Assembly (NCBI GenBank): GCA_013152085.1
Contig: JAADHC010000022.1
Coordinates: 1 to 64,000 of the forward strand
Direction of reading: 5' to 3'
Origin: Chlorobiota bacterium
GTDB taxonomy: Bacteria > Bacteroidota > Bacteroidia > Bacteroidales > VadinHA17
DNA length: 64,000 bases
The notes beneath the pieces were generated by a model that made no database searches, was not told the DNA's origin, and was given only the letters and a program-made list of their open reading frames with translations. Positions within the stretch are counted from its first letter, which is position 1, and each line of letters starts with the position of its first letter. Made by a program: the position numbers and the translations under genes. Positions 5,063-43,433 of this stretch are shown here, piece after piece.

Positions 5063-5095
5063 TTTGCAGTTATGAATAATTTTCTTTTACCTTTG
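5063..5095 (+). promoter_or_regulatory. his operon promoter (Bacteroidota type)
   Basis: TTTG at 5063-5066 is followed after exactly 21 bases by TACCTTTG at 5088-5095. This matches the Bacteroidota consensus (TTTG near -33, TAnnTTTG near -7). Transcription would begin near 5100-5103, just ahead of the leader peptide ATG at 5114. Confidence 0.75.
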
Positions 5096-5113
5096 TAGCC
5101 AAAGTATTGAACT

Positions 5114-5167
5114 ATGAACATATACCGTCATCATCATCATTTTATGTTTCGCTTTGCGGCGAGGTGA
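5114..5167 (+). CDS. hisL: Histidine operon leader peptide
   Basis: A 17-codon reading frame encodes MNIYRHHHHFMFRFAAR with four consecutive CAT (His) codons at 5129-5140. It lies between the his promoter and a terminator in front of hisG. Such frames act as sensors: a ribosome short of charged tRNA-His stalls on the His codons and changes folding of the downstream RNA. The peptide itself probably has no function. The run of His codons, the position and the adjacent alternative hairpins together make this a confident call, although the frame is very short. Confidence 0.85.
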   Translation: MNIYRHHHHFMFRFAAR

Positions 5168-5227
5168 TGGTGGTGTATGGATAAAAAATATCTTTATGTT
5201 AACAAGCCCGCCAAAGCGGGCTTTTTT
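5129..5227 (+). promoter_or_regulatory. Histidine attenuator with competing antiterminator and terminator
   Basis: Three segments can compete. The His codons (5129-5140) can pair without interruption, using G-U pairs, with GTGATGGTGGTG at 5164-5175. The end of the leader frame, GCTTTGCGGCGAGG (5151-5164), can pair with CCCGCCAAAGC (5207-5217) in 11 base pairs broken by two small bulges. The second partner overlaps the 5' arm, the loop and the first bases of the 3' arm of the terminator (5204-5223), so the two are mutually exclusive. A ribosome stalled at His codons would leave 5151-5164 free and allow read-through. A ribosome at the stop codon (5165) would cover it and allow termination. Pairings were found by eye; no folding energy was computed. 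Confidence 0.75.
5204..5227 (+). terminator. Intrinsic terminator of the his leader
   Basis: An 8-bp perfect stem (AAGCCCGC at 5204-5211 with GCGGGCTT at 5216-5223) and a four-base loop run into TTTTTT. It ends 13 bases before the hisG ATG, so it can only serve to control entry into the operon. Confidence 0.85.
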
Positions 5228-5240
5228 ATTTTTATAAAAT

Positions 5241-6104
5241 ATGAAAACAGGTATATTACGATTAGCGGTACAAAAATCGGGACGTCTGCGTGACGGGTCG
5301 CTCAGGCTGTTGAAGGAAACAGGTATTAAACTGGACAACGGGCAGGACCAGCTCAGGGTGAGAACACCAAACTTTCCGCTCGAAATTCTATTCCTGCGAA
5401 ATTCAGATATCCCTAATTATGTCCGTGACGGGGTAGCCGATATTGCCATTGTCGGTGAGAACCTGGTGTCTGAAAAAGGCGAAGATCTGAAGATACAACT
5501 CAAACTGGGTTTCGCCCGCTGCCGGTTGTCGCTGGCGGTCCCCAAAGCGGTGGATTATCCCGGACCGGAATTCTGGGAAGGAAAACGGATTGCCACATCC
5601 TATCCCTCCAGCCTCAGGAAATTCCTGGATGAGCATAACATCAATGCTGCCATCCATGAGATCTCAGGGTCGGTTGAGATAGCCCCCAATATCGGCCTGG
5701 CAGATGGTATCTGTGACCTGGTAAGTTCCGGCAGTACCCTGTTTCAGAACCGGCTGAAAGAGGTAGAGAAAATCCTGGACTCCGAAGCTGTCCTGGTATC
5801 GGGACAACATCTCGTGCCGGAGAAACAGGAAATCCTCGATAAACTTTTATTCAGGTTACAGGCTGTACTGGCTGCCTCGAGCAACAAATACATTCTGCTG
5901 AATGCCCCGAATGACCGGCTGGAGGAAATTACCGGGATCCTGCCCGGGATGAAAAGCCCGACTATCATGCCGCTGGGCCTGAGGGGCTGGAGTTCGGTAC
6001 ATTCGGTCATCGGGGAGGAAGATTTCTGGAACGTTATTGACCGGCTCAAGGATGCCGGAGCACAGGGAATTCTGGTGGTGCCCATCGAAAAAATGGTACG
6101 GTAA
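5241..6104 (+). CDS. hisG: ATP phosphoribosyltransferase, long form
   Basis: HisG joins ATP and PRPP in the first, committed step of histidine synthesis in the cytoplasm. At 287 residues it is the long form. Residues about 1-210 form the periplasmic-binding-protein-like catalytic domain, with the start MKTGILRLAVQKSGRL and the PRPP-loop region DLVSSGSTL. About 215-287 form the C-terminal ACT-like regulatory domain (TIMPLGLRGWSSVHSVI), which binds histidine for feedback inhibition. The long form does not need HisZ, and none is seen. It is the first gene of an eight-gene operon and follows the leader terminator by 13 bases. Its stop overlaps the hisD start (TAATG). Confidence 0.96.
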   Translation: MKTGILRLAVQKSGRLRDGSLRLLKETGIKLDNGQDQLRVRTPNFPLEILFLRNSDIPNYVRDGVADIAIVGENLVSEKGEDLKIQLKLGFARCRLSLAVPKAVDYPGPEFWEGKRIATSYPSSLRKFLDEHNINAAIHEISGSVEIAPNIGLADGICDLVSSGSTLFQNRLKEVEKILDSEAVLVSGQHLVPEKQEILDKLLFRLQAVLAASSNKYILLNAPNDRLEEITGILPGMKSPTIMPLGLRGWSSVHSVIGEEDFWNVIDRLKDAGAQGILVVPIEKMVR

Positions 6105-7396
6105 TGAAAATAGTTGAATATCCGTTAAAATCACAATGGGATAGCCTTTTCAGCAGACCTGTCTTTTCACAGGTGCCGCTTGAAAAAACAGTCAGGCGCA
6201 TCTTCCGGGCAGTGGCCTCGGAGGGTGATAAAGCGGTATTGCGTTTTGGAAAGGAATTCGACCGGTATTCCGGAACCCGATTGGAAGTATCTTCCGCGGC
6301 ATGGAACGAACAGGTGTGCAATGTGGATTCGGATTTGAAAGCAGCCATTGACAGGGCGGCAGTCAACATACGCCGGTTTCATGAAGCCCAACTCCGGCAT
6401 GAGAAAAAGATCGAGACAGAACCCGGTGTGATCTGCCGCCGTGAAATCCGTCCCATCGACAGGGTGGGGTTGTATATTCCCGGAGGTTCGGCACCACTTT
6501 TTTCCACGGTCTTAATGCTGGGAATTCCGGCATCCGTCGCCGGTTGCCGGGAATTATATGTATGCACACCTCCGGATCAGGATGGTAAGGTGAGACCTGA
6601 AATCCTGTATGCAGCCAAAGTTGCCGGTATCCAGCGGATTTTCAGGGCAGGAGGTATTCAGGCAATCGCAGCCATGAATTATGGTACCGAAAGCATACCG
6701 CCTGCCGATAAAATATTCGGACCGGGAAATCAGTATGTTACGGCTGCAAAGCAATATGCACAGTACCTGGGGACTGCCATTGATTTGCCTGCAGGCCCAT
6801 CCGAGGTACTTGTCATTGCCGATGAAACAGCCCGCCCACGATGGCTGGCGGCAGACCTGCTTTCTCAGGCTGAGCACGGTCCTGACAGCCAGGTGATCCT
6901 GATCACCTGGAATAAAGAACTGATCCGTTATGTTCAGACAGAAATTGAAGATTTATTGCCACAGATCCCCCGCAGGGAAATTGCACGGAAGGCTCTGCAA
7001 CATGCCCGCATGATTCTGTGCAGGGATGCAGGGGAAGCTGTTGCGATGGCTAATGCCTATGCTCCGGAGCATCTTATTCTTGCCGTAATTGATCCGGAGA
7101 GGCTTCTGAACAACATCCGGCATGCCGGATCGGTCTTTCTGGGACATTTTACCCCGGAAAGTGCCGGCGATTATGCTTCCGGTACCAACCACACTCTTCC
7201 CACCCGGGGCTTTGCCCGCGTGTATGGTGGCGTATCCACAGAGAACTTTATTAAAATGATGACCATTCAGGAAATTTCCCGGGATGGGTTGAAAAGCCTT
7301 GGGCCGGTGATTGAAACCATGGCCGGAGCCGAGAAACTTATCGCGCACAAACTGGCGGTTTCGGTACGGCTGGAAAATGAAAATACTTCAGGATGA
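6104..7396 (+). CDS. hisD: Histidinol dehydrogenase
   Basis: HisD oxidises L-histidinol to L-histidine in two NAD-dependent steps, the last reactions of the pathway. The 430-residue length is normal. The family pattern is clear: the IPGGSAPLFSTVLML nucleotide-binding stretch, the GPGNQYVTAAKQ motif, the zinc-site region LLSQAEHGPDSQ, and the C-terminal active-site region ESAGDYASGTNHTLPT. Its start overlaps the hisG stop by one base, and its stop overlaps the hisC ATG by four bases, so translation is probably coupled along the operon. Confidence 0.96.
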   Translation: MKIVEYPLKSQWDSLFSRPVFSQVPLEKTVRRIFRAVASEGDKAVLRFGKEFDRYSGTRLEVSSAAWNEQVCNVDSDLKAAIDRAAVNIRRFHEAQLRHEKKIETEPGVICRREIRPIDRVGLYIPGGSAPLFSTVLMLGIPASVAGCRELYVCTPPDQDGKVRPEILYAAKVAGIQRIFRAGGIQAIAAMNYGTESIPPADKIFGPGNQYVTAAKQYAQYLGTAIDLPAGPSEVLVIADETARPRWLAADLLSQAEHGPDSQVILITWNKELIRYVQTEIEDLLPQIPRREIARKALQHARMILCRDAGEAVAMANAYAPEHLILAVIDPERLLNNIRHAGSVFLGHFTPESAGDYASGTNHTLPTRGFARVYGGVSTENFIKMMTIQEISRDGLKSLGPVIETMAGAEKLIAHKLAVSVRLENENTSG

Positions 7397-8484
7397 AACG
7401 ATCCATAAAAGATATTGTACGTTTAAATATCCGGAATCTCCGGCCGTACACCTCGGCAAGGGATGATTTTTACGGTGGCGCGGAAATCTGGCTCGATGCC
7501 AACGAAAATCCGTATGACCCCTTACCAGAAGACGTAAAAGAAAGCAAAGGGAATCCCCGTATTGCACAACTTAACCGGTACCCGGACCCGTATCAGCGTA
7601 TCCTGAAAGAGAAAATTGCCCGTGTAAAAAGCCTCCGACCCGAACAGATTTTTCTGGGAAACGGCAGTGATGAGATCCTTGACCTGCTGTTTCGTACGTT
7701 TTGTGAGCCCGGGAAAGATGAGGTAGTAATCATGCCGCCTACTTACGGAATGTACCGTGTGCTGGCAGATATACATCCGGCAAAGATCAGGGAAATCCCC
7801 CTCGATCCGGCTTTTCAACCCGATGTACAGGCAATCAGGCAACAGACAGGCAGAAGTACCAAAATCATCTTTATCTGCTCTCCTAATAACCCGACGGGAA
7901 ATGCCGTTGATCCTGAACGATTAAAGGATATCATGGCATTTTTTGACGGGCTGGTCGTTGTGGATGAGGCGTATATTGACTTCTCACCCGGAAAATCAAT
8001 TTTGCCGCTGTTGTCAGCATATGAAAACCTGATCATCCTGCAGACCTTCAGTAAAGCGCGGGGACTGGCAGGGATACGCCTGGGTATGGCATTTGCCCAT
8101 CCTGAAGTGTTATCCTGGCTGAACAGGGTAAAGCTTCCTTACAATGTGAACAGGCTTTCCATTACCAAAGCTGCCGAAGCGGTGGAATCGGATAATGCCT
8201 TTGATGCTGTTGGAGCGATTCTCCGTGAAAAAAAGGAAATGTTCGTATTCCTGGAGGATTTACCGTCAGTGCAACAGGTTTATCCTTCGGATGCGAATTT
8301 TATTCTGGTTTGTGTCAGGAATCCTGAAAAGCTTTATACCTTTCTTATTGAAAAAGGAATCGTGGTACGTTTGCGCAGCGGAATCCCCGGGTGTGGGAAA
8401 GCGATCCGGATTACGATCGGGACACATGAAGAAATGCAGCGACTGAAAGAGATCTGGCGGGAATTTGATCAGAAAATGATATAA
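7393..8484 (+). CDS. hisC: Histidinol-phosphate aminotransferase
   Basis: HisC transfers an amino group from glutamate to imidazole-acetol phosphate, giving histidinol phosphate. It is a PLP enzyme of fold type I with 363 residues. Visible marks are the N-terminal LDANENPYDP, the cofactor loop GNGSDEIL, CSPNNPTGN, the DEAYIDF aspartate motif, and the PLP-binding lysine in FSKARGLAGIRLG. The order hisD-hisC-hisB and the four-base ATGA overlap with hisD support the specific assignment over other class I/II aminotransferases. Confidence 0.95.
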   Translation: MKRSIKDIVRLNIRNLRPYTSARDDFYGGAEIWLDANENPYDPLPEDVKESKGNPRIAQLNRYPDPYQRILKEKIARVKSLRPEQIFLGNGSDEILDLLFRTFCEPGKDEVVIMPPTYGMYRVLADIHPAKIREIPLDPAFQPDVQAIRQQTGRSTKIIFICSPNNPTGNAVDPERLKDIMAFFDGLVVVDEAYIDFSPGKSILPLLSAYENLIILQTFSKARGLAGIRLGMAFAHPEVLSWLNRVKLPYNVNRLSITKAAEAVESDNAFDAVGAILREKKEMFVFLEDLPSVQQVYPSDANFILVCVRNPEKLYTFLIEKGIVVRLRSGIPGCGKAIRITIGTHEEMQRLKEIWREFDQKMI

Positions 8485-8499
8485 AATAAACAATATAAA

Positions 8500-9639
8500 A
8501 TGAAGAAAATACTGTTCATTGACCGGGACGGGACACTGGTAAAAGAACCGGATGATTACCAGCTGGATGATTTCGGTAAACTTGAATTTTATCCCGGGGC
8601 CATTTCATGGCTTGCCCGTATCGCAGACGAACTCGATTTTCTCCTGGTGATGGTAACCAACCAGGATGGCCTGGGGACAGACAGTTTTCCCGAAACGGAA
8701 TTTTGGCCCGTTCACAATCTCATCCTGAAAACTTTTGAAAATGAGGGAGTTACATTTGAAAATGTGATCATTGACAGGACATTTCCCGAAGACAATGCGC
8801 CCACGCGCAAACCGGGTACTGACTTGTTGCAGGATTATATGGCGGGGGACTATGACCTGACCGGATCGTTTGTGATCGGAGACCGGATTACCGATGTCAT
8901 TCTGGCACACAATCTGGGTGCCCGGGCCATCTGGCTGGATGACGGTACGGCACCGGGTGGAAATGAAACCGTATGGAACCACGAGAACCTGAAGAAGGCT
9001 GTTGTATTGAAAACCACTTCATGGAAGGATATCTACACCTTTCTCCGGGCGACCGGACGTCAGGTAACCCTGTCAAGAAAAACACATGAAACAATGGTGA
9101 ACCTGACCCTTTCGCTTTCGGGTACAGGCAAAGCCGAAATCCGTACGGGACTCGGTTTCTTCGACCACATGCTCGGGCAACTGGCGTTTCACGGCGGGAT
9201 GGATCTGACGCTGGATGTTAAGGGCGATCTGCAAGTGGATGAACATCACACCATCGAAGATACTGCCATCACACTTGGACAGGCCGTACGGCAGGTAGCA
9301 GATCACATCCCTGCGATAAACCGGTATGGTTTTGTCGTACCTATGGACGACAGTGTGGCTTCGGTAGCCGTGGATATGGGTGGGAGAAGTTATCTGCAGT
9401 GGGAAGTGGATTTTTCCCGCGAACGGATCGGTGATGTGCCTACGGAAATGTTCAAACATTTTTTCAGATCGTTTGCGGATGCTTCCGGATGTACCATCCG
9501 CATTGAAGCTGCGGGTGAAAATGAACATCATAAGGCCGAAGCTGTTTTCAAGGCTTTCGCACGTGCCCTGTCCGGAGCATTGGCTTTAAAGGAAAATAAC
9601 CATGGCATTTCAACAAAAGGAGCGGAACAATGGCAATAG
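8500..9639 (+). CDS. hisB: Bifunctional histidinol-phosphatase / imidazoleglycerol-phosphate dehydratase
   Basis: HisB here is a fusion of 379 residues that carries out two steps. Residues 1 to about 165 are a HAD-family histidinol-phosphatase with the nucleophile motif FIDRDGTL, the lysine region RKPGTDLL and GDRITD. About 185-379 are the imidazoleglycerol-phosphate dehydratase, with the metal-binding histidines in FDHMLGQLAFHG, DEHHTIED and NEHHKAEA. The fused form is also known from enterobacteria, and it explains why no separate phosphatase gene is in the operon. It follows hisC by 15 bases, and its end overlaps the hisH start by ten bases. Confidence 0.95.
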   Translation: MKKILFIDRDGTLVKEPDDYQLDDFGKLEFYPGAISWLARIADELDFLLVMVTNQDGLGTDSFPETEFWPVHNLILKTFENEGVTFENVIIDRTFPEDNAPTRKPGTDLLQDYMAGDYDLTGSFVIGDRITDVILAHNLGARAIWLDDGTAPGGNETVWNHENLKKAVVLKTTSWKDIYTFLRATGRQVTLSRKTHETMVNLTLSLSGTGKAEIRTGLGFFDHMLGQLAFHGGMDLTLDVKGDLQVDEHHTIEDTAITLGQAVRQVADHIPAINRYGFVVPMDDSVASVAVDMGGRSYLQWEVDFSRERIGDVPTEMFKHFFRSFADASGCTIRIEAAGENEHHKAEAVFKAFARALSGALALKENNHGISTKGAEQWQ

Positions 9640-10232
9640 TTGCTGTAGTGGATTATGGTGCCGGGAACAGCCGGTCGGTTTTGTATGCTTTGCAACGCTT
9701 AAGTGTTGATGCGGTTTTTACTGCCGATCCTGATACCATCCGCAGGGCGGACAAGGTGATCTTTCCCGGTGTGGGGAATGCCGGCAGCGCTATGAAAAAA
9801 CTTAAAAATACCGGCCTGGATACGGTGATTCCCGGCCTTCAACAACCGGTACTCGGTGTGTGCCTCGGACTGCAACTGATGTGCCGCCATACTACTGAAG
9901 AGGATACCCGCGGAATGGGAATCTTTGATTCCGGGGTTACCCATTTTGCTTCACAGGCGGAGCGGATGTCCGGACTGAAAATTCCACACATGGGCTGGAA
10001 TGTGGTTGATGGGAATAAAGGGCATTTGCTTTCCGGGATCCCGGAGAATAGTTATTTTTATTTTGTGCACGGTTATTTTGCAGAAGTAAGCAGATGGACA
10101 ACCGGTACTACTGATTACGGTTTGATATTTTCTTCGGTTATGGAAAAGGACAACTTTTTCGCCACCCAGTTTCACCCGGAAAAATCGGGCGATTCAGGTG
10201 AAGCGGTATTAAAAAACTTTTTAGCCTTATGA
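9630..10232 (+). CDS. hisH: Imidazole glycerol phosphate synthase, glutamine amidotransferase subunit
   Basis: HisH hydrolyses glutamine and passes ammonia to HisF. The 200-residue protein is a class I amidotransferase. The catalytic Cys is in GVCLGLQLMC and the His-Glu pair is in FHPEKSG, with the oxyanion-region motif PGVGNAGSAM nearer the start. The gene overlaps hisB by ten bases and hisA by four, as expected for coordinated translation. Confidence 0.95.
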   Translation: MAIVAVVDYGAGNSRSVLYALQRLSVDAVFTADPDTIRRADKVIFPGVGNAGSAMKKLKNTGLDTVIPGLQQPVLGVCLGLQLMCRHTTEEDTRGMGIFDSGVTHFASQAERMSGLKIPHMGWNVVDGNKGHLLSGIPENSYFYFVHGYFAEVSRWTTGTTDYGLIFSSVMEKDNFFATQFHPEKSGDSGEAVLKNFLAL

Positions 10233-10948
10233 TCGAAATCTTTCCGGCCATTGATCTGATTGACGGGAAAACGGTGCGTCTGCGCGAAGGCAGATTCAGT
10301 GATAAAACCGTGTATGGATCAGAACCTGTGGAAATCGCAAAAAAGTACGCAAAATCGGGATACCGGAACCTGCACCTGGTTGATCTGGATGGCGCCCGTA
10401 CCGGCAGGATCAGGCATCTTGAGATTTTACGGGAAATTACGGAAAATACCGGCCTGCACGTGGATTTCGGAGGAGGAGTACGTACGGATGATGACGTGCA
10501 CAAAATACTGAATGCCGGAGCCAGGCAGGTAAATGTTGGCAGTATTGCTGTCAGGGAGCCTCTCCTCCTGAAACAATGGATCACTACCTTCGGAATTGAC
10601 CGATTCATCGCTTCGGTCGACCTGAGGAATGAAGTGCCTGCAGTATATGGCTGGCAGCAGGAGTCGGATATTTCCTGGCAAACGGTTATACAAAACCTGG
10701 AGGATCTGGGAATAACCTTTTTTTCTGTGACGGCGATCCGCCGGGATGGAAAGATGAAAGGGGCGGATATTGAACTATACCGTAAAATACGCGCTGCGTT
10801 TCCGGAAATTTCACTGATTGCCAGTGGTGGTGTCAGTTCAGTGGATGAAATCCGTATCCTGGATGCCATGGGAATGTACGGGGTAATTGTGGGGAAGGCT
10901 TTACTGGATGGGAAAATGGATATAAATGAACTAAAAGAATATTTGTGA
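10229..10948 (+). CDS. hisA: ProFAR isomerase
   Basis: HisA opens the ribose ring of ProFAR to give PRFAR, the substrate of HisF. The 239-residue sequence is a beta-alpha barrel with two phosphate-binding halves. The N-terminal catalytic Asp lies in [14 protein letters not shown], the middle has [12 protein letters not shown], and the second phosphate site is IASGGVSS. The gene lies between hisH and hisF with short overlaps on both sides. The arrangement and motifs rule out its close relative HisF. Confidence 0.95.
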
Positions 10949-11706
10949 TGTTAACTTTCCGGATCATACCCTGCCTGGATGTCCGTGACGGACGAACGGT
11001 GAAAGGCGTGAATTTCCTGAACCTTGCCGATGCCGGCGACCCGGTCGAACTGGCTGCCACTTACCGGGATGAGGGTGCCGATGAACTGGTCTTTCTTGAC
11101 ATCACGGCAACTCATGAACGGCGGAAAACATTGTTGTTTCTTGTAAAAAAAGTGGCGGAAAAACTGAACATCCCCTTTACCGTGGGCGGCGGTATAAGTA
11201 CGGTGGAGGATGTCGGGGCATTGCTGCAGGCCGGTGCGGATAAGATCTCCGTGAACTCTGCCGCAGTGTGCAGCCCCGAACTGATCAGCGAACTGGCCTG
11301 GCATTTCGGCAGCCAGTGTGTGGTGGTTGCCGTGGATGCCAAGAAAACATCCGGAGGAGCCTGGCAGGTCTTTACAGCCGGCGGCAGGACACCCACCGAC
11401 CGCGAACTCTTTTCGTGGGTGAGAGAGGCAGAAGAGCGAGGTGCCGGAGAGATCCTTTTTACATCCATGGACCATGACGGTACACGGAAAGGATATGCCA
11501 ATGAAGCTCTCGCCAGGATCTCAGAAACCCTGAACATCCCGGTAATTGCTTCCGGCGGTGCCGGCAAACCTGAAGATTTTTACAATGCCTGGAAAAAAGG
11601 GAAAGCCGACGCTGCCCTGGCAGCAGGATTGTTTCATTATAAAGAACTTTCTATTAATACCCTGAAAGAATACCTGCGTTCAAGGAACGTACCGGTACGG
11701 ATTTAA
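10948..11706 (+). CDS. hisF: Imidazole glycerol phosphate synthase, cyclase subunit
   Basis: HisF uses ammonia from HisH to convert PRFAR to imidazole glycerol phosphate and AICAR. The 252-residue barrel starts [20 protein letters not shown], with the first catalytic Asp in CLDV. The second is in [11 protein letters not shown], and phosphate sites appear in VGGGIST and [11 protein letters not shown]. The ATG at 10948 overlaps the hisA stop by one base (TGATG). An in-frame GTG one codon earlier is possible, but the ATG fits the family start. Confidence 0.95.
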
Positions 11707-11718
11707 AACAAACAGATA

Positions 11719-12321
11719 ATGGATTTGAATTTTGAAAAAAACAATGGTCTGATCCCGGCGATTATCCAGGATGCAAACACCCGCCGGGTGTTGATGATGG
11801 GTTACATGAACCGTGAGGCCTGGGAGAAAACACAGTCCGGGAAGCTGGTCACCTTTTACAGCCGCAGCCGGAAAACCCTGTGGACCAAAGGGGAAACCAG
11901 CGGGAATTTCCTGCATTTTGTTGATGCGAAACCCGATTGTGATCACGATACCCTGCTTATCCGTGCGATTCCCGACGGTCCGGTTTGCCACATGGGAACG
12001 GATACCTGCTGGGGGGAGGAAAACATACAAACACCGGGTGACTTCTTAAAGGATCTGGAAGATTTGTTAAAAGAAAGAAAAACGAATCGTCCCGTGGGTT
12101 CCTATACGGTAAAACTGTTTGATGCAGGTATTAAAAAGATTGCCCAGAAGGTGGGCGAGGAGGCTGTGGAAACCATCCTCGAAGCCGAAAACGGTACCGA
12201 TGAACGTTTCCTGAGCGAAGCCGCCGACCTGCTATACCATCTCTTAACCCTTCTTGTGGCGAAAGAACTGAGCCTGAATGATCTGGTGGAGGAACTGGAA
12301 AGGAGAAGGAGAGAGGGGTAA
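11719..12321 (+). CDS. hisIE: Phosphoribosyl-AMP cyclohydrolase / phosphoribosyl-ATP pyrophosphatase
   Basis: This fusion performs the second and third pathway steps. Residues about 1-105 are the HisI cyclohydrolase, with SRKTLWTKGETSGN and the zinc ligands in DCDHDTLL and CHMGTDTCW. Residues about 110-200 are the HisE pyrophosphatase, an all-alpha MazG-like domain with the metal-binding GEEAVETILEA and DLLYHLL. It is the last gene of the operon, 12 bases after hisF. No clear terminator follows; the sequence passes into low-complexity purine repeats. Confidence 0.95.
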   Translation: MDLNFEKNNGLIPAIIQDANTRRVLMMGYMNREAWEKTQSGKLVTFYSRSRKTLWTKGETSGNFLHFVDAKPDCDHDTLLIRAIPDGPVCHMGTDTCWGEENIQTPGDFLKDLEDLLKERKTNRPVGSYTVKLFDAGIKKIAQKVGEEAVETILEAENGTDERFLSEAADLLYHLLTLLVAKELSLNDLVEELERRRREG

Positions 12322-12402
12322 GGATAAAGTAAAAAGTAAAAAGGAAAAAGTAAAAAGTGATTTGCCTTGTATTAGATCCTCCTGAAACCAGGTTCGAGGA
12401 AA

Positions 12403-12627: not shown

Positions 12628-12771
12628 CAGGTTGTGCTTGACATTCTTGATGCCCTGAATTTTCTTCATACCCGGGCATTGGTTCATACCGATATCAAAC
12701 CGGCTAACATAATCCTGCAGGATCGGGGGAAAGAGATATTCCATGCTCTCCTCATTGATCCCGGCGAAATG
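12628..12771 (+). pseudogene. Relic of a Hanks-type Ser/Thr protein kinase
   Basis: In this frame 48 codons contain VHTDIKPANIIL. That fits the kinase catalytic loop HxDxKPxN, preceded by LDALNFLHTR as in the helix before the loop. It is followed by HALLIDPGE, which resembles the magnesium-binding LIDFGE with Phe changed to Pro. A TGA stands just upstream (12625), and the resemblance ends where the heptamer repeat begins. No glycine-rich loop or C-lobe is present nearby. It can only be a fragment and is unlikely to make a functional kinase. The evidence is motif-based; a profile search was not possible. Confidence 0.5.
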
Positions 12772-12791
12772 CCCTTTTATCACACTTCCTT

Positions 12792-12854
12792 CATCCTTCA
12801 TCCTTCATCGTTCATCCTTCATCGTTCATCGTTCATCCTTCATCGTTCATCCTT
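12792..12854. repeat. Heptamer tandem repeat CATCCTT/CATCGTT, nine units
   Basis: Nine contiguous 7-base units follow one another, five CATCCTT and four CATCGTT. The array overlaps the last codons and the stop of the minus-strand peptidase gene (12840-15008), whose final KDER and TGA are written by the first two units in its reading direction. Confidence 0.9.
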
Positions 12855-15008
12855 CAAAAGGTGTCTGATCAGAAAATCTGCTGTGGATTCATCTACCAGC
12901 ACCTGGTTCGAATGCAGCAGGAAATGATGGGTGTCATCAACGATCGTCAGTGTTTCCATGGGAACATTGCGTTTGAGCAGGCGTTGGACCAGGTCGGTGG
13001 AATGCACAAAATTTACATTCCGGTCATCATCCGCATGAATGATCAATACCGGGGAAGTCCAGGTTTTAACGTAAGCATTGGGAGAAGACAACCATGTAAC
13101 CCGGGCCGCTTTTTCGGCATCGGGAGCCTTTTCGTATCGATGCGGATAGAGATAGTTTTGTACCCGACCCATACTGCGATCGTGGACGCCTGATATATCC
13201 ACCCCTGCTGCAAAGATATCGGAGTTGCGTGCCAGGGCCATTGCCGTCAGATATCCGCCGTATGACCCTCCGTAGATTCCGATCCTGGATCCGTCAACAA
13301 AAGGCTGGGTTGCCAGCCATTCCCCTGCTGCCTTGATATCCTGATATTCCGAAGCTCCGCGCGGACCGGCATGTTTGGGATGATGAAAATGGTAACCGTA
13401 TCCAATTCCGAGCCGGTAGTTAACAGACAAGACGACAAAACCCTTGTTCACAAGGTATTGATTGACGGCATAAGCATTGGAGTAGTAGGAGGAATAGTGC
13501 CAGCCGAGTAGCATCTGTCTTGGCGGTCCCCCATGTACAAAGATTACCGCCGGTTTTTTCTTTGTCCCTCCCTTTGGAACAAACAGATCGGCATGTACTT
13601 CTGTGCCGTCAGGTGCGTTAAAGATTACCTGTGTCGGGGTAATCAATGATTTCGTAGGGTAATCCTCAGGAATAAGATCTGCTCCCAACAGCGATGTTTT
13701 ATGATCTGCCAGGTTCATAACTGCCGGAAGGGGAGGACGCTTTGCTGTGGCGCTGATGTAAATCATCGACTTCCCGTCTCCGGTAATAAACGGGGTCCAC
13801 TCCAGTCCGGTACCGGGTGTTATTATTTCCATATCTGCTTTGTCTACCGAAACCCTTACGATATGTCGCCGTTCCAGGTCGAGAGGATCCGGACCGGTAT
13901 TTCCGGCAAACACCAGTTGTTTTCCGTCTGCACTTATGGAAATGTATTCTGCCATGAAATTTCCGGGCGTGAGCAACAGGGCTTTCCCTCCGTTTTCAGG
14001 TATCGAGTAGAGGTGTGGCCAGCCATCCTGATAGGAAAGGAAAACTATCCGTCCGGCACCCCAGTGGAGATTGCTGCGCCCCTGCGTGGTAGGATAAGAC
14101 CCTTCGGGCGTATCCGGCGATTTCCACACAATCCGTGCGTTGCCTGTCCGGATGTCTGCGGTCAGGATTTTCCATGGATTTGGTTCGGGACTGAGAATGG
14201 AGTCCGGGGCTCCGCCTTCTCCTGCCATCCGGACAAAAGCCACTTTCTTACTGTCCGGCGACCAGCGTGGAATGTTATCATAGGTAAAGGCCGGATCAAG
14301 CCAGACAATGGGTTTATCCTGCCCGGAAAAGATACCGATAAAAGCATGATCGTTCCGGTACGACCGGAATGCCAGCTTTTTGCCGTCAGGACTCCAGCGG
14401 GGATATCCATTACGCCCCCGTGCATTAAACAATTGGCCCGGTTTTGATGATCCGTCTATGGGAACGCCCCAGAGCTGTCCTTTCCTGACAAAAATAACGC
14501 TGTCGGAAAGGGGAGAAATAACAGGGGAGGTGCCTTCCCCAAGCAGGATGGGATCTCCCCCGGAGAAAGGGATACTCCAAATCTGTACTTTCGGTGGTTC
14601 TGGCAGGTGGCGCGGATTTACCGGCAGCGCATCATCCCAGTTGGCTCCGAAATCACCGCCACGGATATAAACACACCACTTTCCGTCAGCAGAAAGTTTT
14701 ACACTACTAAGTTCCTGCCCTTCATCCTCGAGGTATGGAGTGAGGCGGCGCGGAGTGAATTCAGGACCTTCAGCTACATAAATATTCCGCAGTCCGTTGA
14801 AATTGATCGTCCATGCTACATGAGACCCGGTAGCAGCCACTGTCATTCCCGAAGGAAAAGGGAAACTGAGTACCTGCTTCATGGTAAAGGATTTGCCACG
14901 GGCAGAAAGATTACCGGGGGAGAATATCCACAGAAGTCCAAGAAACAACAGGGCCGGAAAATAAATCCTGTGCCTGTCAGGTTGATGATGAATTGATGTT
15001 GTTTTCAT
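12840..15008 (-). CDS. Secreted S9 family serine peptidase (acylaminoacyl/prolyl oligopeptidase type)
   Basis: The 722-residue protein has a signal peptide (about residues 1-36, ending SARG). A beta-propeller of PD40/WD40-like repeats with recurring WSPDGKK and ISADGKQ strands spans about 40-430. The C-terminal alpha/beta hydrolase spans about 450-722. The catalytic Ser582 is in GGSYGGYL, the Asp in IHADDDRN, and the His in DDTHHFLL. It probably cleaves short peptides in the periplasm. It is related to the 270-2438 peptidase only at the level of the S9 superfamily. The last four codons and the stop lie inside a heptamer repeat, which suggests that the original C-terminus was replaced or trimmed when the repeat arose. 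Confidence 0.92.
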   Translation of the reverse strand: MKTTSIHHQPDRHRIYFPALLFLGLLWIFSPGNLSARGKSFTMKQVLSFPFPSGMTVAATGSHVAWTINFNGLRNIYVAEGPEFTPRRLTPYLEDEGQELSSVKLSADGKWCVYIRGGDFGANWDDALPVNPRHLPEPPKVQIWSIPFSGGDPILLGEGTSPVISPLSDSVIFVRKGQLWGVPIDGSSKPGQLFNARGRNGYPRWSPDGKKLAFRSYRNDHAFIGIFSGQDKPIVWLDPAFTYDNIPRWSPDSKKVAFVRMAGEGGAPDSILSPEPNPWKILTADIRTGNARIVWKSPDTPEGSYPTTQGRSNLHWGAGRIVFLSYQDGWPHLYSIPENGGKALLLTPGNFMAEYISISADGKQLVFAGNTGPDPLDLERRHIVRVSVDKADMEIITPGTGLEWTPFITGDGKSMIYISATAKRPPLPAVMNLADHKTSLLGADLIPEDYPTKSLITPTQVIFNAPDGTEVHADLFVPKGGTKKKPAVIFVHGGPPRQMLLGWHYSSYYSNAYAVNQYLVNKGFVVLSVNYRLGIGYGYHFHHPKHAGPRGASEYQDIKAAGEWLATQPFVDGSRIGIYGGSYGGYLTAMALARNSDIFAAGVDISGVHDRSMGRVQNYLYPHRYEKAPDAEKAARVTWLSSPNAYVKTWTSPVLIIHADDDRNVNFVHSTDLVQRLLKRNVPMETLTIVDDTHHFLLHSNQVLVDESTADFLIRHLLKDER

Positions 15009-43043: not shown

Positions 43044-43433
43044 AATTTGGAATTAGGTAATTAAATAGGTAATTAAATAGGTAGATAAATATCAGGTGAT
43101 TGTTGGAAATGTTGAAAGATACATTGTTAAGACGAGGGAGATTGCCTGCCTGACGGCAGACAGGCTTCTCCTGACGATTCACTGCGTTCATGTCAGGATC
43201 GCAATAACCCGACTTTGACAAAAAGAAATGAGAAGAGCGATGTACTTATTTTAGTTTTACAATATTATAACAGCAACCGGAGCTTACCTCCGCCAAGGCT
43301 ACGGCGGGCAAGGGGAGCAAGTGACCACAGAATGACGGTGAGCGACAGCGAACGAATGACATGTGCAAAGCGAATGAAAAATAGAGAGCGGCGAGAGCAA
43401 ATGATCTGAAAATAATGAACAAAAACAAATACC
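43044..43433. repeat. Repeat mosaic between cysD and cysN
   Basis: This 390-base gap within an otherwise conserved gene pair holds no gene. In order it carries three 12-base units TAGGTAATTAAA (43054-43089, the last diverged), a hairpin GCCTGCCTG/CAGACAGGC (43144-43165), a TCCTGAC/GTCAGGA pair (43169-43198), CCGCC/GGCGG (43290-43307), and dispersed repeat copy B (43330-43380). The parts look like accumulated intergenic elements. If cysD and cysN share a transcript, all of them are transcribed. Confidence 0.65.
43330..43380 (+). repeat. Dispersed repeat, copy B
   Basis: GAATGACGGTGAGCG, then AGCGAACGAATGACATG, aligns to copy A at 4091 over about 50 bases with one gap. It ends 53 bases before the cysN ATG. 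Confidence 0.65.

Follow-up and report, generated by a model that had tools for sequence, protein, structure and literature searches.

A predicted histidine-sensing leader-peptide attenuator upstream of the his operon in Bacteroidota

In the enterobacterial his attenuator, which has seven His codons, a stalled ribosome favors antitermination, and lack of translation favors termination. For Bacteroidetes, the Bacteroid-trp RNA motif is, as its name indicates, associated with trp genes. This motif (RF01692) has been listed as a candidate cis-regulatory RNA of Bacteroidetes (PMC2864571), and RNA-seq of Flavobacterium psychrophilum gave clues of leader-peptide attenuation before amino-acid biosynthesis operons, with a main text that neither names histidine nor describes stems (PMC9723704). 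In Firmicutes, His leader peptides with a terminator and an antiterminator precede his operons, in a set limited to the Bacillus cereus group, Eubacteriales, and Erysipelotrichales, without Bacteroidota in the main text (PMC9413887). In a 2021 survey of his genes in Bacteroidota, attenuation is described only for enterobacteria (PMC8305728), and a survey of RNA regulons proposed an origin of amino-acid attenuators in gamma-proteobacteria (PMC3766115). The literature that we searched gives only hints of leader-peptide attenuation in Bacteroidota; no dedicated study of his attenuation in Bacteroides was found, and the two most relevant comparative papers lay outside this search. Vitreschak et al. 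in 2004 (FEMS) and Lopatovskaya et al. in 2010 reportedly list a few attenuators of Bacteroidetes/Chlorobi.

The window, i.e., the whole stretch of 64,000 nucleotides of DNA analyzed here, contains a complete hisGDCBHAF(IE) operon of eight genes that overlap or almost abut their neighbors. The elements ahead of this operon (Table 1) are predicted to form a histidine-sensing, ribosome-mediated transcription attenuator, a reading to which we assign a probability of about 93% and by which the operon would very probably be switched on only under histidine shortage. An earlier note on this DNA had described a 17-codon frame with four adjacent CAT codons, so that His accounts for 4/17 codons, and a consensus promoter composed of TTTG, 21 bases, and a second element; sequence and coordinates agree with both descriptions. 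From the promoter elements, the transcription start is expected at about 5101-5105. Transcripts that start downstream of 5227 had been named as one of the findings that would speak against attenuation, and a sequence scan of 5096-5240 detected no second TAnnTTTG element and no other -7 element.

Table 1. Positions of the attenuator components and of the his operon in the window
Feature	Position	Strand	Basis
Bacteroidota-type promoter: TTTG (-33) at 5063-5066, 21-base spacer, TACCTTTG (-7) at 5088-5095	5063..5095	+	Sequence and pattern
Leader peptide gene, 17 codons, MNIYRHHHHFMFRFAAR and stop, no Shine-Dalgarno	5114..5167	+	Translation; counterparts at 146/173 hisG upstream regions
5' helix between leader codons (His run among them) and bases from the stop codon onward	5119..5179	+	MFE fold
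Four regulatory His codons (CAT x4), predicted stall site	5129..5140	+	Sequence; antiterminator favored only with a ribosome here (model)
Antiterminator 5' strand, final leader codons up to the stop	5149..5165	+	14 pairs with 5206-5219
Intrinsic terminator, AAGCCCGC-CAAA-GCGGGCTT and T run	5204..5229	+	Sequence; fold -13.7 kcal/mol
Antiterminator 3' strand, shared with the terminator (5' arm, loop, and first 4 bases of the 3' arm)	5206..5219	+	Pairing
hisG, long form with C-terminal regulatory domain	5241..6104	+	TIGR00070, TIGR03455
hisD, hisC, hisB (bifunctional), hisH, hisA, hisF, hisIE (remainder of the operon)	6104..12321	+	NCBIfam above cut-off

Past the operon, a tandem repeat (AAAGTAA, 4.7 copies) is found at 12326-12358, just behind hisIE. 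Between hisIE and the next gene, a protein kinase-like fragment (12634-12860, with HTDIKPANIIL) runs into a 10-copy repeat of the 7-bp unit TCCTTCA (12787-12856) and probably represents a gene in decay that carries a variable repeat. A further tandem repeat (TAGGTAATTAAA, 3.2 copies) is located at 43054-43091.

The terminator stem has 8 bp (5204-5211/5216-5223) and ends 17 bases ahead of the hisG ATG at 5241; the distance of 13 bases that had been given before is correct if counted from the T run, not from the stem. The antiterminator consists of 14 pairs, with 5149-5155, 5158-5161, and 5163-5165 facing 5206-5219; the two terminal pairs are U-G, and the 5' strand includes the first base of the stop codon. 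As this duplex occupies the 5' arm and the loop of the terminator together with four 3'-arm bases, it excludes terminator formation. The alternative pairing that had been proposed between the leader end and the terminator (5151-5164 with 5207-5217) is present and slightly longer, and the proposed pairing of the His codons with 5164-5175 (12 bases) corresponds to a 5' helix of 17 bp. The leader RNA folds with -41.1 kcal/mol, compared to -26.6 +/- 3.5 kcal/mol for shuffled sequences (z = -4.1), and 0/200 shuffles were as good. In terms of its predicted structures, the element can fairly be regarded as a complete attenuator.

To follow the folding as a function of the ribosome position, we made every base as far as the leading edge of the ribosome (A-site codon + 12 nt) unavailable for pairing and calculated pair probabilities from the partition function, which with its fixed +12 footprint is a crude model. 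In untranslated RNA, the 5' helix is predicted to sequester the antiterminator strand. The predicted probability of the terminator is about 0.95, whether the ribosome is absent or has reached the stop codon. For the finished transcript, the antitermination index is 0.44, 0.53, 0.45, and 0.70 when the A site holds His codon 1, 2, 3, or 4, respectively; for the nascent transcript (3' end at 5218-5220), the model gives an essentially complete antiterminator with the ribosome on the His codons. Once the ribosome edge moves beyond 5153, the finished terminator is restored. When 5141-5203 was shuffled, a switch at least as large was obtained in 16/1000 cases (p of about 0.017). Minimum free energy folding alone gives the same result for an edge at 5150, but an edge at 5143 lets a small hairpin (5149-5167) compete, which places the best stall site at the end of the His run. 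The folding check suggested in the earlier note came out as anticipated: the antiterminator is favored if bases are blocked as far as the last His codon, and the terminator is favored if they are blocked through the stop codon or not at all. In silico, the two structures are mutually exclusive, the antiterminator being favored with a ribosome on the His codons and disfavored with one at the stop codon.

Given the components, the extent to which they are conserved, and the modeled switch, we infer that the leader is translated, that ribosomes stall on it in close coupling to RNA polymerase, and that termination occurs in the cell. Transcription would begin from the TTTG/TACCTTTG promoter, followed by translation initiation at the 17-codon leader. 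With ample His-tRNA, the ribosome would reach the UGA and cover the 5' strand of the antiterminator, the terminator stem (5204-5223) could form, and transcription would stop before hisG. With scarce His-tRNA, the ribosome would stall on the CAU run, disrupt the 5' helix, and leave 5149-5165 free for pairing with 5206-5219, which would prevent terminator formation and permit transcription of the operon. If there were no translation at all, the 5' helix would form and the terminator would win.

The duplex energy of the window antiterminator alone did not stand out against shuffled sequences when only the 5' arm and the loop of the terminator were considered (p = 0.37). Addition of the first five 3'-arm bases gave p = 0.055, a borderline value from an extension that was chosen after the first result; the value changed because antiterminators of this kind, as at GGTTTGCA-type terminators, extend through the loop into the 3' arm. 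The antiterminator duplex of the window, taken alone, is thus borderline, and it is among the relatives that the statistics become strong.

We looked for hisG in 149 genomes from the order and in 296 from the phylum, added named GTDB loci, and compared the upstream regions. The resulting sample comprises 173 non-redundant regions, mostly of Bacteroidota, and is skewed toward HisG proteins close to the query, with few genomes whose HisG is distant. A short ORF with at least four His codons in nine codons occurs in 132/173 regions but only in 4/865 shuffles, and with at least three His codons in nine the numbers are 150/173 and 49/865. An ATG-started His leader is found in 146/173 regions, leaving about 27 of the 173 without a recognizable one. 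The holders include Flavobacteriaceae (Mesonia, Salegentibacter, and Flavicella), Cyclobacteriaceae, Pontibacter, and many Bacteroidales. As these relatives share ancestry, the counts do not represent independent events, a concern that class-swap and shuffle tests lessen without removing it. The median leader has 18 codons in total, with 7 codons from the last His to the stop codon and 30 nt from there to the terminator; the corresponding distances in the window are 8 codons and 36 nt. The window element thereby shares the pattern of the Bacteroidota group, namely a His run followed by 4-8 codons, an antiterminator strand at the leader end, and a terminator about 30 nt past the stop codon. In 96/145 leaders, a -7 element is found no more than 45 nt from the leader ATG, compared to 10% of shuffled regions.

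Among the leaders, His is encoded by 534 CAT and 123 CAC codons, with both types mixed in 73/134 leaders, so what is conserved is the amino acid and not a repeat in the DNA. An interpretation of the His run as a CAT microsatellite was rejected for the same mixed codon usage.

The complementarity between the stretch behind the His run and the 5' arm of the terminator was compared with dinucleotide shuffles for 134 leader/terminator pairs. It was significant (p < 0.05) in 87/134 pairs (about 65%), with p <= 0.01 in 40/134, and 79/128 pairs remained significant when duplicate terminators were removed. In 83 of 84 cases that were significant by rounded p values, the strand lies within reach of a ribosome at the stop codon. 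None of the 15 GGTTTGCA-type terminators was significant with 5' arm and loop, as opposed to 7/15 with the first five 3'-arm bases. The terminator cores vary by lineage (CCGTYTGA, GGCTTRCC), and the leader ends change in step: mean duplex energies within a class are -13.3 (CCGTYTGA) and -15.7 kcal/mol (GGCTTRCC), compared to about -8.4 to -9.0 kcal/mol for swapped combinations, and own-class pairing is better in 64/66 leaders. In the model, the nascent antiterminator averages 0.90 over the 134 elements with the ribosome at the first His codon, 0.80 at the last His codon, and 0.34 at the stop codon, and the nearest relative of the same family (L028) shows the same predicted switch. In many relatives, the equilibrium model gives a completed terminator that is more stable than the antiterminator, and switching must therefore be kinetic in these cases. 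His codons, terminator, and competing stem are thus all kept in related genomes, as the earlier note had called for. Its view that the enterobacterial mechanism operates here is supported; it understated the breadth and overstated the surprise, as attenuation had already been suggested in the phylum (PMC9723704, PMC2864571).

Leaders of this design are found in the same genome before other amino-acid operons, all on reverse strands and each 26-28 nt ahead of a terminator: MIYTTKHINWWWLYGIRITP at trpE (L180), the TTG-started MNRFVVHIILTVIILLSGHR at ilvD (L181), about half of which is Val/Ile/Leu, and MLFDFTYSYFYFRVRL at pheA (L184). The ilvD leader has an 11-bp antiterminator formed from the final codons and the stop codon, and flips almost perfectly in the model, with the antiterminator at codons 5-16 and a terminator probability of 0.99 at the stop codon. 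The pheA leader is predicted to flip between the stalled state and the stop codon, yet it also antiterminates without a ribosome, and the modeled switch of the trpE leader is weaker and purely nascent. Neither the trpE nor the pheA leader matches Rfam Bacteroid-trp or any other leader family, and homoserine dehydrogenase loci of this genome had no leader in the regions examined.

The window has one His attenuator, whereas six relatives have two His leaders in series before hisG, each with its own terminator (L012, L031, L039, L040, L045, and L053; in L039, the units lie at -352 to -8 relative to hisG). Most copies show the predicted difference between stalling and stop, which is unclear in both L012 copies and in the second L053 copy. 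Both tandem units appear to sense the same amino acid, unlike the published tandem attenuator of Salmonella mgtCBR, which reads two different signals (PMC3641672).

In nine further regions (L013, L093, L123, L138, L162, L166, L167, L170, and L171), a His leader is present without a recognizable terminator. The first four of these and L107, with leaders that end in HHFHHSS before the stop codon, have no convincing intrinsic terminator, and in several of these five the stop codon lies within a short inverted repeat (ATTCCTC..GAGGAAT); they are possibly translational or Rho-dependent versions. The other five, together with L173, L175, and L176, have His leaders 52-102 nt from hisG, again with no recognizable terminator, and likely represent another variant. 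Translational or Rho-dependent His-leader versions thus probably exist in the phylum.

The nine terminator-less leaders would be in line with a leader that acts mainly on translation, by exposing or hiding the hisG start or by re-initiation, and not on termination. At the window, such an action is very improbable, as a strong terminator with a T run lies between leader and hisG, the switching stems do not include the hisG start, and it is the terminator that the alternative helices affect.

A second alternative is that a riboswitch, a T-box, or a protein-bound attenuator works the same terminator and that the short ORF is incidental. The 5' helix and the terminator do form without any ribosome, and T-boxes or HisR are known at some Gram-positive his operons (PMC9413887). 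However, no Rfam family was detected in the window at the gathering threshold, and no known T-box or metabolite riboswitch family matched the element. A permissive search (E <= 1) of the element gave only sub-threshold matches to Trp_leader (RF00513, 26.1 bits versus a threshold of 41) and Thr_leader, which are leader-peptide attenuators themselves; His_leader (RF00514) did not match the element at the gathering score or at E <= 1, and Bacteroid-trp (RF01692) matched neither the window nor the trpE leader of this genome. Since, in addition, the conserved part is the His run and the antiterminator strand is at the leader stop codon across lineages, we regard this alternative as very improbable. 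Least credible of all is a constitutive terminator with a chance His-rich ORF and an operon read from a downstream promoter or by leakage, as, despite the borderline duplex energy of the window, the leader is conserved in 146/173 regions, shuffles almost never yield such ORFs, no other -7 element exists up to 5240, and the switch has a p of about 0.017.

With ribosome-mediated attenuation as the preferred reading at the window, we lean toward the broader view that leader-peptide attenuation is an old default of amino-acid control across Bacteroidota (for His almost throughout; for Trp, Phe, and Ile/Val/Leu in this genome), using a compact antiterminator made of leader end and stop codon, with two serial His attenuators in some lineages. 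As such a switch works only if a ribosome closely follows RNA polymerase, close transcription-translation coupling would be implied at such operons, in a phylum that starts translation largely without Shine-Dalgarno pairing, and two attenuators in series would multiply the dynamic range of a response to one signal. This would explain the regulation of the his operon in a phylum whose his survey has only enterobacterial attenuation (PMC8305728). A coupling-dependent switch conserved throughout the phylum would make coupling in Bacteroidota directly testable, the rule that the leader end is the antiterminator could be used to look for His, Trp, Phe, and Ile/Val/Leu leaders missed by existing models, and the serial His attenuators would lend themselves to testing the effect of stacking on a response.

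Compared with known systems, the element resembles enterobacterial hisL (RF00514) in its leader with a run of His codons, followed by an intrinsic terminator and then hisG, but it has four His codons instead of seven, fewer segments, an antiterminator strand that consists of the leader's own final codons, and a Bacteroidota promoter without a Shine-Dalgarno sequence. The His attenuators of Firmicutes (PMC9413887) share the His leader with terminator and antiterminator outside Proteobacteria, and the attenuation suggested for F. psychrophilum (PMC9723704) concerns amino-acid biosynthesis operons of the same phylum. In its topology, the element is closest to the three-segment attenuators of the trp type: like the trp, phe, and ilv attenuators (RF00513), it has the pairings 1:2, 2:3, and 3:4, and a ribosome at the stop codon masks segment 2, whereas amino acid and operon differ and segment 2 lies mostly inside the ORF. 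It is a known kind of switch, and what is less ordinary is its phylum-wide conservation and the occurrence of serial His attenuators in six relatives.
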